Assembly (NCBI RefSeq): GCF_000383875.1
Contig: NZ_KB912883.1
Location: 1-64,000, forward strand
Reading direction: 5' to 3'
DNA: 64,000 nucleotides
Origin: Caldibacillus debilis DSM 16016
GTDB taxonomy: Bacteria; Bacillota; Bacilli; Bacillales; Caldibacillaceae
A program made the translations under genes and the position numbers. Under the pieces are notes generated by a model that saw nothing but the letters and a program-made list of their open reading frames with translations, was not told the DNA's origin and did not search any database. This document shows positions 4,384-49,083 of this stretch, piece after piece. Position 1 is the stretch's first letter. Every line of letters begins with the position of its first letter.

Positions 4384-5071
4384 GGGCTTCCGCCTCTTCC
4401 GTCGCCATGTAGCCCTGTCCCACCTTCGTTTCGATATAGGCCCCCAGCCCCAGTTCATCCAGCCGCTTCCTCAAGCGGTTCACATTCACCGTCAGCGTGT
4501 TGTCGCTGACGAACCGTTCGTCGTTCCACAGGCTTTTGATCAGTTCCGTGCGGCTGACGATTTGGTTTTTTCTTTCCAGCAGGTGTTTCAGGATCAGCAT
4601 CTCGTTTTTCGTCAGCTCGACCGTCCCTTTTTGGTTGGTGACGGTGTTTTTCGCAAAATCGACGGCCGCTCCCCGCCATGTTCTCAGCCCGCCCGGTTCC
4701 GCGCTGTAATTGTATGCCCGCCGGAGGATGGCCTGGATTTTGGCGATGAGCACGTCAAAATGGAACGGCTTTTGGATGTAATCGTCCGCCCCGAGCTGCA
4801 TCGACATGACCATTTCCGCCGGGTGGTCCCGGGAGGATAAAAAGAGGATCGGCACGTTGGAGTGGGAGCGGATCATCCGGCACCAATAGAAGCCGTCGAA
4901 TTTCGGCAGCTGGATATCGATGATCACGAGGTCCGGTTTGATTTCGGAAAACTCCTCCATGACGCGGCCGAAATCCCGGATCCCCCGGACATCGTACGAC
5001 CATTGGGACAACCGTTCCTTGATTTCCTGAAACAATGTGGCGTCATCTTCGATGAGCAGAATTTTGAACAC
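4376..5071 (-). CDS. bceR: BceR-type OmpR-family response regulator
   Basis: 231 aa: a receiver domain (1-115) with acidic pair ED at 8-9, phosphoacceptor Asp52 (VIIDIQLPKFDG) and Lys in the YIQKPF motif, then a winged-helix DNA-binding domain (about 130-225) ending NVNRLRKRLDELG. It starts with GTG at 5071 after a GGTGAT-like ribosome site. First gene of a four-gene minus-strand cluster. A TATAAT-like -10 lies at 5107-5112 on the minus strand with only a weak -35. Confidence 0.92.
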   Translation of the reverse strand: MFKILLIEDDATLFQEIKERLSQWSYDVRGIRDFGRVMEEFSEIKPDLVIIDIQLPKFDGFYWCRMIRSHSNVPILFLSSRDHPAEMVMSMQLGADDYIQKPFHFDVLIAKIQAILRRAYNYSAEPGGLRTWRGAAVDFAKNTVTNQKGTVELTKNEMLILKHLLERKNQIVSRTELIKSLWNDERFVSDNTLTVNVNRLRKRLDELGLGAYIETKVGQGYMATEEAEAHD

Positions 5072-43355: not shown

Positions 43356-43417
43356 AAAAAAGCATCCGCCGCGCTCCTCGCAGGACCCGGAACGGGACGC
43401 CGAGCGCAGGCGGATGC
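43356..43417 (-). terminator. Terminator of pepT
   Basis: GCATCCGCC (43362-43370) and GGCGGATGC (43409-43417) with an inner GCGCTC/GAGCGC extension; on the minus strand followed by six T. Confidence 0.88.
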
Positions 43418-43472
43418 GGTATGTGGGTCACATGATGAAACGCCGGGTATCGAATGGCTCGCCGCGTTTCAT

Positions 43473-44705
43473 TCAAGCGCGTTGTTCAAACAGCTTGATG
43501 ATTTCGATGATGACGTTCGTCGCTTTGATCATGTTGTCGACGGAAATGTATTCGTACTTGCCGTGGAAGTTTTCGCCGCCGGTAAAGATGTTCGGCGTCG
43601 GCAGGCCCATGTAGGACAACTGCGAGCCGTCCGTACCGCCGCGGATCGGGGAAATGATCGGTTCGATCCCCAGATTTTTCATCGCCTGTTGCGCGATGTC
43701 GACGATTTCTTTGACCGGTTCGATTTTTTCCCGCATGTTGTAATATTGGTCTTTCATGTCCAAAAGGATGTTGTCCCGGCCGTATGTTTCCCGCAATCTT
43801 TCCACGATGGAAGACAAGGTCTTCTTTTTGTTTTCAAATTCCTGCCGGTCGAAGTCGCGAATGATATAGTACAGTTCGGTCTTTTCCACATTCCCTTGGA
43901 AGGAAAGCAGATGGTAGAATCCTTCATATCCATCCGTATATTCCGGCGCCTGTTTTTCCGGAAGCATGCGGTGCAATTCCATGGCGATCTTCATGGAGTT
44001 GACCATCTTTCCCTTCGCCGTGCCAGGGTGGATGTTGTTTCCTTTGATCGTGATTTTGGCGCTGGCCGCGTTGAAGCTTTCGTACTGCAATTCGCCGATG
44101 CGGCCGCCGTCCATCGTATAGGCGTATTTGGCGTTGAATTTTTTCACGTCAAATTTGTGCGGCCCCCTGCCGATTTCTTCATCGGGGGTGAAAGCGACCC
44201 GGACTTTCCCGTGCTTGATTTCCGGATGCCGCAGCAGGTAGTTCATCGCCGTCATGATCTCCGCGACGCCGGCCTTATCATCGGCGCCGAGCAAAGTCGT
44301 CCCGTCCGTCGTAATTAACGTGTGGCCGACATAAAGATTTAGGGAAGGGAATTCTTTCGGCGAAAGGACGATATTTTCTTCCCGGTTCAAAAGGATGTCC
44401 TTGCCGTCGTAATTTTCGATGATCTGCGGTTTCACGTTTTTTCCGGTGAAATCGGGGGCCGTGTCCACATGGGCCAAAAAACCGATCGTCGGCACGTCCT
44501 TATCCGTGTTGGCCGGCAAGGTGGCGAACACATATCCGTTTTCATCGATCGTTACTTCTTCCATGCCGATTTCTTTTAATTCATCGACAAGTTTGTTCAA
44601 CAGCACCAGCTGGCCGGGTGTGGAAGGGCAGGTGGCGCTGTCCTCGTTGGATTGGGTGTCGATTTGGACATAGGATGTGAAACGACGGATCAATTCTTCT
44701 TTCAT
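43473..44705 (-). CDS. pepT: Peptidase T (tripeptidase)
   Basis: 410 aa M20 metallopeptidase that removes the N-terminal residue from tripeptides. Metal and catalytic motifs are visible: HVDTAPD (about 78), LLGADDKAG (about 138), TPDEEIGRG (about 173), DGG (about 197), plus the family hallmark [16 protein letters not shown] 44705 follows AAGGAG by 12 nt; longer in-frame extensions run through the repeat array and are not used. It probably works on peptides brought in by the POT and Dpp importers. Confidence 0.95.
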
Positions 44706-44825
44706 TCCCGTTTTCAACTCCTTTTTGCAGAACTTTCGAAACTTGCCATCAGATAAAAATATCATATCACAAATGGAAGGCGCTGAAGAGGAAAAATTGC
44801 CCGGGCGGCGTTTCCCGTTTCGGTC

Positions 44826-45262
44826 ATGATTTCGGACAAACCGCAGCGGATGTTGGACACCGAAAAGGATGATGGACATTTTTCGTCCGGTGACGGACGT
44901 TTTTTTCGTGATGATCGATATTTTTTCTTTTATGTCGGACAAATTTTTTCCATGTTGAACAAAAATTTTCCAATGTTGGACCGATCGTTGAAAATGTCGG
45001 ACAGTCCCATGCGATGTTGGACGATTTTTTTCAGATATGGACCGATCCGGTTGAAATGTTGGACCGTCCGTCCCGAAAGCCAAAAGGAATGTCGAACGTT
45101 TTACCCAATATGTTGAACAAACGGTATCGTTGTTTGAACATTGTGCAAAAAATGCAGAACATTTCCGGTCACGAAGAAAAAATGGCGGACATTCCGGATC
45201 GGAAATACAGAATGTCGGATATTCCTCCTATGTTGAACGAAAAACTTTCCATGTCGGTCCAT
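44826..45262. repeat. Array of about 20 degenerate 21-bp direct repeats
   Basis: Units begin ATGTYGRAC (most often ATGTTGGAC or ATGTCGGAC) followed by about 12 variable bases. Unit starts are near 44826, 44850, 44872, 44890, 44911, 44932, 44952, 44973, 44994, 45014, 45035, 45056, 45089, 45110, 45130, 45152, 45182, 45212, 45230 and 45251. The commonest step is 20-21 bp, two turns of DNA. The frame is not kept, so the array is not coding. It lies upstream of and divergent from pepT. Confidence 0.88.
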
Positions 45263-45717
45263 GACCGTCCGGCCGGAAATGCCGGAGCCCCTGACTCGCG
45301 CCTCAGTCTCTGCACATACCGGGAAAAGATGGAGTTGAACCAGTCGCTTCTTCCCCGAAATCCCCATAAAACTTGGAAGGTTGGGACCCGTCGCGTCTTA
45401 CCGGCAATCCCTCCGGGATCCTGTTAAAAAACGGTTCTGACGATCGGATGAGGCGCCGATGATCCCGGGAATTTTTGCGTCGCCCTTCGGTCAGAGACAA
45501 TAATGGAAATTTTCCGCGGATTCGGGTAAAATTAAAAGCATATCGCCGCCAGGGGAAACATCCGTTCGATGAACGGAACCGAGAAGGCAAATCCATGGGA
45601 AGGAACGGGATTTATTCCGTAAAGTTTTGCCCGGATGTTTCATCGGATCCAAGAGGTTGATCTTCCTCATGGGATTTCCATTCCGCAAGGTTTTGCCAGT
45701 AAGGAGGAATAGGCGGT

Positions 45718-47451
45718 ATGATCCGCAGGTTTTTTTCATATTATAAGCCCCATAAAAAACTGTTTCTCCTCGATTTTTCCAGCGCGGTCGTCGTCGCCGT
45801 CTTGGAACTGGCCTTTCCGGTTGCCGTCCAATGGTTTGTCGACGATCTTCTCCCGGAAGGGAACTGGGGAAAAATCGTTTCCGTCGGCGCGGGGCTGCTG
45901 GCGTTGTATCTCATCAACACCGTGCTGCAATATATCGTCACCTACTACGGCCATATGCTCGGCGTCAACATCGAAACGAACTTGCGCCAGCAATTGTTTG
46001 AACAGGTGCAAAGGCAATCCTTCCGGTTCTTTGACAATACGAAGACGGGGCACATCATGAGCCGGATTACCAACGATTTGTTCGATATCGGCGAATTGGC
46101 CCACCACGGCCCGGAAGATTTTTTCATCTCGGTGATGACCTTTTTGGGCGCCTTTGCCATCATGCTTTCCGTCAATCCCCGAATGACCTTGGTTACCGTC
46201 CTGATCGTCCCGCTGTTGATTTGGCTGATTTGGATTTGCAATATCAAGATGAACCGGGCCTGGAGTGAGATGTACCAAAAGATTGCCGACGTCAACGCGA
46301 GGGTGGAGGACAGCGTCCAGGGGGCCCGCGTCGTTCAGTCGTTTACCAATGAAGATTACGAGATTGCGAGGTTCAAAACCGACAACCAAAGGTTCCGGCG
46401 GGCGAAATTGCAAGCCTATCACGTGATGGCCTATACGAATTCGGGCATCTATTTCATGATGAGGATATCCACCCTCGCCGTCCTCATTTACGGGGCGTGG
46501 CAATGTTATCAGGGACAGCTCACCTACGGGGAACTGGTCGCCTTCCTGCTGTATGTCAATATTTTGTTCAAGCCCATCGACAAGATCAGCTCCCTGATGG
46601 AATTGTACCCGAAGGGGATGGCCGGCTTTAAGCGATTCCTCCAGATCATGGACCGGGAACCGGATGTCAAGGACCGGGAGGGCGCCGTCAACGTCGACCG
46701 TCTCCGCGGCGAGATCCGGTTTTCCAATGTTTCTTTCCGCTACGAAAAGGATAAGCAGGTGTTGGAAAACATCAATCTCCATATCCGCGCCGGGGAAACG
46801 GTGGCCTTCGTCGGTCCGTCGGGCGCGGGGAAAACGACGATCTGTTCCCTGATCCCCCGGTTTTACGATGTGGATGAGGGTTCCATCACCATCGACGGGA
46901 TCGATGTCCGGGACATGACGAAAAAATCGTTGCGGAAACAAATCGGCATCGTCCAACAGGACGTATTTTTGTTTACGGGAACGATCAGGGAAAATATCGC
47001 TTACGGAAAGCTGGACGCCACCGAAGCGGAGATCCGGGAAGCGGCGAGGAAAGCCCGTTTGGACCAGTTTGTCGAGTCGCTTCCGGACGGCTATGAAACG
47101 CAGGTGGGAGAAAGGGGATTGAAGCTGTCCGGCGGGCAAAAACAGCGGATCGCCATCGCCCGGATGTTTTTGAAAAATCCGCCCATCCTGATTTTGGATG
47201 AGGCCACTTCCGCCCTCGATTCGGAGACGGAACGGATGATCCAGGACGCCTTGGAGGAGCTGTCGGAAAACCGGACGACGTTGGTGATCGCCCACCGGTT
47301 CGCCACCATCCGGAACGCCGACCGCATCGTCGTTGTAACGGAAAAGGGGATCGCGGAGGAAGGCACCCTGGAAGAGCTGTTGGAGAAAGACGGCCTGTTT
47401 GCCCGGATGTACCGCGCCCAATTCCATCCCTTTGAACCGGCTGCCCGCTAG
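45718..47451 (+). CDS. ABC exporter half-transporter (permease fused to ATPase)
   Basis: 577 aa. Six helices fill the N-terminal about 310 residues, including the loop VEDSVQGARVVQSFTNE typical of multidrug/lipid exporters. The ATPase domain shows Walker A GPSGAGKTT (about 369), LKLSGGQKQR, Walker B LILDEATSALD and the switch His AHRFAT. Such half-transporters act as dimers. No partner half-transporter is adjacent, so a homodimer is likely. ATG 45718 follows GTAAGGAGGAATAGGCGGT. It resembles B. subtilis YgaD/BmrA-class exporters; the substrate is unknown. Confidence 0.9.
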   Translation: MIRRFFSYYKPHKKLFLLDFSSAVVVAVLELAFPVAVQWFVDDLLPEGNWGKIVSVGAGLLALYLINTVLQYIVTYYGHMLGVNIETNLRQQLFEQVQRQSFRFFDNTKTGHIMSRITNDLFDIGELAHHGPEDFFISVMTFLGAFAIMLSVNPRMTLVTVLIVPLLIWLIWICNIKMNRAWSEMYQKIADVNARVEDSVQGARVVQSFTNEDYEIARFKTDNQRFRRAKLQAYHVMAYTNSGIYFMMRISTLAVLIYGAWQCYQGQLTYGELVAFLLYVNILFKPIDKISSLMELYPKGMAGFKRFLQIMDREPDVKDREGAVNVDRLRGEIRFSNVSFRYEKDKQVLENINLHIRAGETVAFVGPSGAGKTTICSLIPRFYDVDEGSITIDGIDVRDMTKKSLRKQIGIVQQDVFLFTGTIRENIAYGKLDATEAEIREAARKARLDQFVESLPDGYETQVGERGLKLSGGQKQRIAIARMFLKNPPILILDEATSALDSETERMIQDALEELSENRTTLVIAHRFATIRNADRIVVVTEKGIAEEGTLEELLEKDGLFARMYRAQFHPFEPAAR

Positions 47452-47700
47452 GAGCAAAAACAAGAAAAGAAGACGGAAGGCTCGCCCCGCAGGGGGAAGC
47501 TTCCTTCCGTCTTTTATGATTCATCCGTTATTCATTCAGGCTCAGGAGCAAAAATAAGACGGAAGGGCTCGCCCGCAGGGGGGCCCTTCCGTCTTTTATG
47601 ATTCGCCCATTATTCATTCAAGGCCAAGGAGCAAAAAATAAGACGGAAGGGATCGCCCCGCAAAGGGGATCTCCCCTCCGTCTTTTTATTATTCGTCCAC
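47450..47700. repeat. Three tandem terminator units
   Basis: Units starting AGGAGCAAAAA at 47450, 47544 and 47627 each hold AGACGGAAGG (AGACGGAGGG-like pairing in the third) and the matching CTTCCGTCT or CTCCGTCT followed by TTTT, then a TTATKATTC tail. The third unit runs into the tcyP stop region, and the tails of units 1 and 2 look like copies of it. Repeat length about 83-94 nt. Confidence 0.9.
47470..47516 (+). terminator. First of three terminators after the ABC exporter
   Basis: AGACGGAAGG...CCTTCCGTCT with TTTT on the plus side. Similar hairpins follow at about 47557-47596 and 47641-47687. A-rich flanks let them serve tcyP on the minus strand as well. Confidence 0.85.
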
Positions 47701-49083
47701 CTTTAATTCGGCCAGATTCCGGTCGTTGTATACCCCCGTGTCCAATGCTTTTGTCACGCGGCTTGTTAACAGGCCGGACACCATGCTGCCGCTGACGTTT
47801 AATGCGGTCCTGCCCATGTCGATCAGCGGTTCGACGGAAATCAGCAGGCCGACGATGGCGATCGGCAGGTTCAAAACGGAAAGGACGATCAGGGAGGCGA
47901 AGGTGGCCCCGCCGCCGACGCCGGCCACGCCGAAGGAGCTGATCATGACGACCGCGATGACGGTCAGGATAAAGCCGAGATCATGGGGATTAATCCCCAC
48001 GGAGGGAGCGACCATCACCGCCAGCATGGCCGGATAGATCCCCGCGCACCCGTTTTGCCCGATCGACAGGCTGAAGGGTCCGGCAAAATTGGCGATCGAT
48101 TCGGGAACGCCCAGCTGTTCCGTTTGCGTTTTTAAGTTTAACGGCAAGGTTCCCGCGCTGGAGCGGGAGGTAAAGGCGAAGGTCAAGGCGGGCATCGCCT
48201 TCCGCACGTAGATGAACGGATTCAACTTCGCCAAGCCGATGAGCAGCAGATGGACGGCAAACATGAGGATCAGCGCCACATAGGAAGCGACGACGAATGT
48301 CCCCAGTTTAACGATGGCGTCGAAGTCGCTGGTTGCCGTCACCTTTGCCATCAGGGCCAACACGCCGTAGGGCGTCAGGCGGAGAATCAACGTCACGATG
48401 CGCATGATGACGGCGAAGAGGGCATCGATGATCTTCGCGAACAATTCCGCTTGTTCCGGCTGTTTTCTCTTCACCCCGAGATAGGCGATTCCGATGAATG
48501 CGGCGAAAATGACGACGGCGATCGTCGAGGTCGGGCGGGTGCCGGCGAGATCCGCGAAGGGATTCGCAGGCAAAAATTCCACGATCTGGCCCGGAAGCGT
48601 CATATCTTGGATGGACCCCATCTTTTCGCTCAATTCCGCGTTCCTGGCCGCCTCCGCTTTCCCTTCGGTCAATTGGATGCCCTCCAGCTGGAAACCGAGG
48701 GCGGAAAAGACTCCGATGGCGGCGGCGATGGCCGTCGTTCCCAAAAGGATGCCGATGACGAGGAAGCTGATTTTCCCCAGGTTTTTGGTCGCGCGCAATT
48801 TCGTAAAGGCGCCGACGATCGAGATGAAGACGAGGGGCATGACGATCATTTGCAGCAGTTTCACGTAGCCGGCGCCCACGATGTTATACCAATCGATCGT
48901 CGTTAGCGTCACTTTTGAGCCGGTGCCGTACAGGGCGTGGATCATGAGCCCCAGCAATATCCCCAGTCCGAGGCCGGTGAAGACCCGCTTGGAAAAGGAG
49001 ACATGCCTTTTTTGCTGCCAAAACAAAATGCCGATGAGTGCCAATAAAATAAGAATGTTAACGATGACGAGAAGCGTGTCCAT
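47689..49083 (-). CDS. tcyP: L-cystine symporter (sodium/dicarboxylate symporter family)
   Basis: 464 aa with about nine helices and two hairpin loops. The substrate-site motifs FAFTSRSSAGTLPLN and VAGVGGGATFASLIVLSVLNLPI match TcyP of B. subtilis closely over the whole length, including the N-terminal KRHVSF...RVFTGLGLGI and VKLLQMIVMPLVF. It imports L-cystine as a sulfur source. Single gene; I saw no S-box or CymR site in the short upstream region. Confidence 0.93.
   Translation of the reverse strand: MDTLLVIVNILILLALIGILFWQQKRHVSFSKRVFTGLGLGILLGLMIHALYGTGSKVTLTTIDWYNIVGAGYVKLLQMIVMPLVFISIVGAFTKLRATKNLGKISFLVIGILLGTTAIAAAIGVFSALGFQLEGIQLTEGKAEAARNAELSEKMGSIQDMTLPGQIVEFLPANPFADLAGTRPTSTIAVVIFAAFIGIAYLGVKRKQPEQAELFAKIIDALFAVIMRIVTLILRLTPYGVLALMAKVTATSDFDAIVKLGTFVVASYVALILMFAVHLLLIGLAKLNPFIYVRKAMPALTFAFTSRSSAGTLPLNLKTQTEQLGVPESIANFAGPFSLSIGQNGCAGIYPAMLAVMVAPSVGINPHDLGFILTVIAVVMISSFGVAGVGGGATFASLIVLSVLNLPIAIVGLLISVEPLIDMGRTALNVSGSMVSGLLTSRVTKALDTGVYNDRNLAELKVDE

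Follow-up and report, generated by a model that had tools for sequence, protein, structure and literature searches.

A dispersed, helically phased array of putative protein-binding sites in the intergenic DNA of Caldibacillus debilis

Introduction

Plasmid iteron and centromere arrays consist of direct repeats of approximately 17–22 bp that lie on one helical face and are bound cooperatively. One or a few such arrays are found per replicon, adjoining a rep or par gene. The array described here differs in having at least 41 chromosomal copies that adjoin unrelated genes.

The closest described element that was found is BrickBuilt of Porphyromonas gingivalis, a minisatellite inside a MITE with 19 copies in strain ATCC 33277 (PMC4596501). 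BrickBuilt resembles the present array in being dispersed, always intergenic, built of direct repeats close to two helical turns (23 nt) and limited in host range, and differs in that its repeats have no spacers and are framed by a leader and a tail with small inverted-repeat ends (PMC4596501). In contrast, the units of the present array are degenerate, with a 9-bp core that is kept in preference to the spacers, conserved but irregular steps and no inverted-repeat ends that could be found. The TAACTGA repeats of Beggiatoaceae, Cyanobacteria and Bacteroidetes are likewise intergenic, proposed as binding sites, patchily distributed among lineages and followed by unrelated genes; they are heptamers that for the most part directly precede start codons, and a post-transcriptional role has been proposed for them (PMC4679880), while here a 9-bp core recurs at a 21-bp pitch in elements of 430–530 bp. 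Within the Bacillales, the bcr1–bcr18 repeats of the Bacillus cereus group are dispersed sequences of 100–400 bp, some of them mobile, with up to 130 copies of bcr1. Their mobility is tied to a TTTAT motif, and the part of the source that was available mentions no internal phased array (PMC6542083); they are set apart here by description and not by sequence.

The initial annotation of this DNA knew of no described element of this form. None was found in a literature search mostly without subscription papers, although a related kind, the minisatellite in a MITE, is published (PMC4596501). Intergenic, dispersed, minisatellite-like elements are therefore not new as a kind, and the degenerate, phased and selected sites reported here are a new variant.

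Results

The array in the window

The window, a 64,000-nucleotide stretch of Caldibacillus debilis DSM 16016 (contig NZ_KB912883.1, positions 1 to 64,000), carries an array of degenerate direct repeats at 44826–45262 (Table 1). The core ATGTYGRAC occurs there on the + strand 10 times exactly, 15 times with at most one mismatch and 17 times with at most two, and the - strand gave no match with at most one mismatch. Dinucleotide-preserving shuffles of the array (n = 2000) held a mean of 0.58 cores and a maximum of 4, and eight core pairs were spaced 19–22 bp apart compared to a shuffle mean of 0.0015. In the rest of the window, outside 44700–45300, no 437-bp stretch contained more than two cores on the + strand or three on the - strand. 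The array is real and far beyond chance, as first annotated: an equal core density in shuffled sequence, which the annotation had named as evidence against it, was looked for and not found, none of the 2000 shuffles reaching 15 cores.

The annotated steps of 21, 20, 21, 21, 20, 21 and 21 bp from 44911 to 45056 are present, though two of the eight cores are weak (44911, ATGATCGAT; 45035, ATATGGACC). A count of about 20 units holds only when weak units and steps of 30–33 bp are included. The array was correctly placed in the gap between the divergent pepT and an ABC exporter; this gap spans 44706–45717 and both neighbours gave profile matches.

Table 1. Features of the window copy of the array and its neighbours.
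Feature	Position	Strand	Remarks
Array units 1–12	44829..45088	+	Most constrained block of the family: shared spacing plan, core constraint
Cores of units 1–12	44829, 44850, 44869, 44890, 44911, 44932, 44952, 44973, 44994, 45014, 45035, 45056	+	
Array units 13 to ~20	45089..45261	+	Second half, less conserved; family-plan steps 21, 33, 31, 20
Cores of units 13 to ~20	45089, 45110, 45152, 45182, 45212, 45230, 45251	+	
3' tail resembling CCATGACCnTCCnnCCGGAAATGCCGG	45262..45290	+	Read by eye; also after the arrays of L312 and L314
pepT (peptidase T)	43473..44705	-	Left neighbour, not part of element; NCBIfam TIGR01882, E 6.3e-208
ABC exporter, MsbA-like permease/ATPase	45718..47451	+	Right neighbour, outside element; scores below the curated cut-offs of the families listed

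The tail listed in Table 1 is a possible 3' end of the element, and the right flank of the window copy (45262–45441) shows patchy similarity to other copies. One 14-nt inverted pair of 86% identity brackets the array (44713–44726 and 45326–45339), probably by chance because its left arm is the stretch directly upstream of pepT. One terminator-like stem of 6 bp lies inside the array at 44884–44899. Immediately after the ABC exporter, at 47465–47694, there is a tandem repeat of 2.7 copies of an 82–86 bp unit, the consensus of which contains a G+C-rich inverted repeat followed by T's and reads like a multiplied terminator.

A dispersed family with one spacing plan

The initial annotation treated the array as a single element, which the genome search corrected: the 3.06 Mb genome (40 contigs) contains at least 41 dispersed intergenic copies. 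The window array matched dozens of further places on both strands, the longer ones 67–85% identical. A two-core pattern gave 81 matches and none in the reversed control, a consensus query gave 42, and a profile search of 0.71 Mb of DNA added one weak copy. These copy counts are lower bounds, since scoring covered 40 of the 81 initial candidates in one search and 40 of the 88 in another.

The spacing plan derived from 40 copies is 21, 19, 21, 21, 21, 21, 21, 21, 20, 21, 21, 33, 21, 42, 21, 33, 31, 20 and 21 bp, and it is the same even in copies only about 64–70% identical to the consensus. The copies are therefore homologous elements and not separately built arrays. In 27 of 40 copies, at least 11 of the 12 cores of units 1–12 occupy the modal ungapped position; in the window copy only 7 do so, and the shuffled control reached a maximum of 3. 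The element is approximately 430–530 bp in size, and some 570 near-exact core sites are spread over about 40 arrays. The 361 perfect cores carry the Y/R combinations TG (221), TA (90), CG (41) and CA (9).

In five truncated copies the best consensus match stops by position 264, and three more copies are very weak. Extra units beyond the standard plan were found in L288 (C1:322226-322768), L306 (C1:420898 onward) and L308, and in L302 and L307 the units seem to run on upstream. L302 and L304–L308 (L060 and L062–L066 in the tree) form a diverged subgroup. The alignment of copies to the consensus (mafft keeplength) discards insertions.

Helical phase of the cores

Analysis of core phasing in the family plan gave a best period of 10.5 bp with R = 0.87, compared to 0.28 at 21 bp and 0.12 at 10.0 and 10.8 bp. 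Controls with random spacing reached 0.87 in 42 or 77 of 20000 cases, with the non-21 steps drawn from 12–40 or 16–36 bp. The 33-bp steps break the register at 21 bp, yet the cores stay in phase at 10.5 bp, a result that favours recognition of duplex DNA by a protein along one face. The claim that all cores share one face of the DNA thus held across steps of 19, 20, 31 and 33 bp, while of the proposed two-turn period of 21 bp the same-face phasing stood and the register at 21 bp itself did not.

Constraint on core and spacing

Majority-base agreement over 18 units was 88–92% of copies at core positions 0, 1, 5, 7 and 8 and 63–70% at spacer positions 15–20. Pairwise comparison of core and spacer covered 37 of the 40 copies, in all of which the spacers had departed further from the consensus than the hard core had. 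Spacer identity was 40–50% in 46 pairs (47% overall), and at the six hard core positions these pairs were 85% identical. The initial claim that only the 9-bp core is kept was borne out in this sense, the core being conserved far better than the spacers. At core offsets 4 (Y) and 6 (R), transitions and transversions stand at 85:15 and 78:7, compared to 559:738 in the spacers, and these transition-dominated offsets fit Y/R recognition.

Constraint was also seen among recent copies. Six independent recent pairs differ at 41 of 625 hard core positions and 245 of 1570 spacer positions (p = 2.6e-9), with the soft core positions (offsets 3, 4 and 6) changed as often as the spacers (50 of 315). On the terminal branches of a tree of 32 copies, units 2–12 showed 91 changes at 2299 core positions and 479 at 4486 spacer positions, a ratio of 0.37 (p = 2e-23); this analysis left out L067, L068 and L069 and the truncated L054, L057, L058, L059 and L061. 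When the truncated copies and the whole length were included, the terminal ratio was 0.54 (291/3914 compared to 1360/9842) and the internal ratio 0.32. The tree is star-like, with terminal branches making up 7.57 of the total length of 9.31. On the internal branches of the same 32 copies the core/spacer ratio was 0.20, a stronger constraint than on the terminal branches, so part of the constraint may act on the element's own spread.

Three copies with a common 5' flank allow array and flank to be compared, the flank being an equal-age control only if both were copied together. Between L259 and L264 the flank shows 17.5% substitutions and 11 indels while units 1–12 show 9.6% and none; the corresponding values are 19.3% and 10 indels against 11.5% and none for L260/L264, and 7.0% and 3 indels against 3.7% and none for L259/L260. 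Units 13–20 contain one indel in each of these pairs. In the close pair L263/L264 array and flank are alike (8.9%, 7.5% and 8.1%), and L262/L265 has one indel within units 2–12. Of the five truncated copies, three (L058, L059 and L061) have cores that look relaxed (0.79–0.83), the core value of L061 equalling its spacer value to two decimals; the cores of L054 and L057 are not relaxed. Taken as substitution and indel patterns, these comparisons show constraint on core and spacing continuing after the dispersal of the copies.

Coding capacity and RNA structure

Several features would suit the remains of a protein-coding repeat with a single reading frame. The 21-bp unit is divisible by 3, parts of the window copy are crossed by + strand ORFs of 96 and 137 aa and by an upstream extension of the pepT frame on the - strand, and the window copy itself is open in two + frames over units 1–12. 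A consistent frame across the family, the other finding named beforehand as contrary to the annotation, was looked for in 28 copies and not found: each frame is free of stops in 8 of them at most. Divergence by codon position in these 28 of the 40 copies was 0.205, 0.191 and 0.180, giving no codon periodicity, and the 19- and 20-bp steps shift the frame. A coding origin is accordingly of negligible probability, and the first description of the array as non-coding extends to the family.

If the array acted as transcribed RNA, its AUGWYGRAC sites would serve an RNA-binding protein or a base-pairing partner. Every core lies on one strand, on which the spacers are T-rich, and in 32 copies the + strand folds slightly better than shuffles (mean z -1.44, 9 copies below -2; - strand -0.64, 5 below -2). 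Against this, the window copy gave z values of -0.38 and -0.68, no conserved structure was found across the 29 best copies after alignment (-1.56 kcal/mol over 494 columns; 13 pairs in the consensus fold, one with change on both sides), and 43400–47800 gave no Rfam match at the gathering threshold. The orientation of the arrays relative to genes is mixed, and the strict 10.5-bp phase and absence of indels in units 1–12 fit duplex DNA better, which leaves action as RNA an unlikely reading.

The array is not a CRISPR, as annotated, since its repeats are degenerate, its spacers are homologous between copies and Rfam gave no match in the region. Nor is it a REP or BOX element, the 29 copies having no conserved hairpin; a REP/BOX/ERIC palindromic repeat was also rejected because the window locus has no inverted repeat of at least 12 nt with arms less than 244 nt apart. 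A palindromic core TGTY-G-RACA was dismissed, Y and R being without clear covariation and unit position 3 being A in 37%. Special predicted curvature was rejected as well (by a wedge model the mean z was 0.42 in 38 arrays and 0.24 in 27 flanks).

Genomic setting

Gene calls based on codon usage, trained on the window, overlap none of 40 elements save for one weak ORF call on the same strand. Called genes lie on both sides of 38 elements, and the other two are close to the ends of contigs. Gaps that hold an element have a median length of 1240 bp (40 rows, in which two elements appear twice), compared to 168 bp for gaps without, and by gene orientation 14 of the 40 rows are divergent, 20 co-directional and 6 convergent. 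No common function was found in the 30 of 47 start-facing neighbours scanned, which include uvrC, Mn catalase, spermidine synthase, penicillin-binding proteins, S4, leucyl-tRNA synthetase, RNase J and arginase. Since the family is dispersed, little can be read about pepT and the ABC exporter from the position of the array between them. A plasmid iteron or centromere array was rejected, the 30 scanned neighbours containing no rep or par (E up to 1e-8) and plasmid and phage records giving no match to the array. In viral contigs a pattern search gave 16 matches, assessed through the open-frame filter described below, and none with a family-specific pattern.

No replication-strand bias of the arrays was seen, with 17 rows on the same and 25 on the opposite strand by gene strand and 18 and 24 by GC skew. 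The copies lie a median of 38 kb apart within contigs and are more evenly spaced than random (CV 0.60 compared to 0.89; 1.45% of simulations in a post hoc test, 1.5% on contigs of at least 100 kb only), a weak hint at a chromosome-scale role.

Seven relatives of the same family gave no match to the array longer than 44 bases (best E 7.5e-4), so that any host role would be lineage-specific. The speE/pbpG gap measures 1099 bp in this genome and 188 and 190 bp in the two of seven relatives that keep the pair, and therefore about 910 bp has been gained here or lost in the relatives. For rpsD/GGDEF the gap is 1297 bp here and 683–1371 bp in six relatives, lengths too alike to call an insertion; the array in this gap (L286, C37:64218-64601) may have replaced other DNA rather than lengthened the gap. 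The genes ytqB and leuS are non-adjacent in the six relatives where both were found.

Insertion sequence remnants and mobility

The common 5' flank of L259, L260 and L264 resembles the left end and N-terminus of an ISLre2-type element. Pieces related to ISLre2 adjoin L260, L261, L262 and L265, including a PF06782 piece beside L260 (C13:25159-25278). The genome has 11 PF06782 (ISLre2/UPF0236) matches on five contigs (C37, C36, C13, C28 and C40; L268–L282), all covering less than the whole model, and the pieces look broken or partial. When 10 copies were compared with the DNA of IS-carrying loci, matches lay within about 2 kb of seven, at differing positions, and none was present within that distance of the window copy, L263 or L266. 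ISLre2-like pieces may have helped some copies spread. Of 780 pairs of copies, 8 have similar left flanks and 25 similar right flanks, with none in reversed controls.

Neither terminal inverted repeats nor target duplications were found when the ends of 24 copies were compared with mismatched ends. The longest inverted end matches had a mean of 7.1 in both cases (maximum 11 compared to 12 mismatched), and the direct ones 7.0 compared to 6.6 (maximum 9 compared to 11); old copies could have lost their ends.

A non-autonomous mobile element offers another account, in which the array is a substrate of the copying machinery, selection falls on the lineages still moving and the genomic copies are decaying passengers. 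This would accommodate the many copies at unrelated places with little flank similarity, the gain between speE and pbpG relative to two relatives, the ISLre2-like flank and neighbouring IS-related pieces, and the stronger constraint on internal branches. It fits poorly with the lack of terminal repeats and target duplications, with IS pieces lying at differing places relative to the array, and with constraint that persists on terminal branches and in the closest pairs. We regard it as a serious possibility, though a doubtful one.

Similar arrays in other genomes

A three-core pattern searched over 84,980 species genomes (own genome possibly left out) gave 109 stretches. Eleven were read directly; all were filtered for open frames, and spacer identity was taken for those without a long frame. 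Most of the latter are repeats with similar spacers or other periods. Main-run steps of 20–21 bp together with spacer identity below 0.5 were found, among others, in Alkalibacillus filiformis (L144) and, with three units, in Psychrobacillus antarcticus (L155), and a Bacteroidetes MAG (L092) also has spacer identity below 0.5 in five units with one 28-bp step.

Within the order, 6 of 397 genomes have a similar pattern: the own genome, two of one Alkalibacillus-type genus (A. filiformis, G286, and G091), Bacillus fonticola, and two in which the repeat encodes a coiled coil. Three further genomes of the Alkalibacillus-type genus (G171, G307 and G367) have no such array. The 13 array places examined in G286 and G091 have cores of the form WTGTYGGAC at a 20–21 bp pitch with locus-specific spacers, lie 6–121 bp from neighbouring long ORFs and include four places common to both genomes; ORFs of 73–158 aa cross seven of the 13, so that coding is possible there. 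The recurrence of the core in this genus may be convergence picked out by the search, since the search used this very core. In B. fonticola, L208 (C1:717407-717541) is an array of ATGTCGAACGTGCGCAAAAAC units with steps of 21 and about 40 bp, the core of which contains the 0A-box word TGTCGAA.

The 0A box of the sporulation regulator Spo0A is TGTCGAA, and the arrays might be imagined as a sponge of degenerate 0A boxes titrating that protein. TGTCGAA is among the variants covered by the motif TGTYGRA, and TGTCGAAC is the form found in the B. fonticola array. The box itself is present in only 8 of 361 perfect cores, in which T at Y and G at R prevail, the opposite of the expectation under selection for 0A boxes, and the Alkalibacillus arrays prefer TGTCGGAC; we consider such a sponge very improbable.

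Simple 21-bp tandem repeats in other genomes have the same pitch and a matching 9-mer, and in most of them the spacers are near-identical between units, whereas here they are degenerate. The near-uniform spacers of those repeats and the extra units of L288 and L306 would be expected of a neutral minisatellite without function. The retention of one spacing plan by dispersed copies and the decoupling of core from spacer speak strongly against neutrality, to which we give hardly any credence.

Discussion

The family is best described as a dispersed, non-coding, selected and helically phased array of putative cooperative protein-binding sites, a reading to which we assign a probability of slightly more than one half. 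The working part of the element would be a row of about 20 ATGWYGRAC sites on one face of the helix, separated by steps near multiples of 10.5 bp and bound cooperatively by a sequence-specific DNA-binding protein. The bound arrays would probably act as nucleation points for an extended nucleoprotein structure at some 40 chromosomal places, and chromosome folding, insulation between genes or regulation are candidate outcomes. The host, rather than only the element, would benefit from the array, and some of the constraint possibly serves the spread of the element. Cooperative binding was already proposed in the initial annotation and agrees with the one-face phasing and the core constraint; we infer the binding itself from sequence. 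Counting against this reading are the unrelated functions of the neighbouring genes, the lack of replication-strand bias, the soft core positions that change like spacers in recent pairs, the higher terminal ratio once truncated copies are included, the relaxed cores of three truncated copies, the pairs L263/L264 and L262/L265, and the 7 of 12 modal cores in the window copy.

A more far-reaching proposal is that the approximately 40 phased arrays form a lineage-specific chromosome-organising system, in which a predicted protein coats each array as an architectural or insulating node, and that other bacilli, Alkalibacillus for example, have built arrays of their own on a similar core and pitch. 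This extension is speculative and, in our judgement, improbable as a whole.

Repeats scattered through bacterial genomes are usually taken for mobile debris, and in this family selection is measurable on a short word and on its helical phase. The copies were found only in one lineage of the bacterial family, and they bear on the long-standing question of whether such repeats acquire architectural roles. A binding protein, if one exists, might prove to be a new nucleoid or regulatory factor, and hundreds of its sites would already be mapped.
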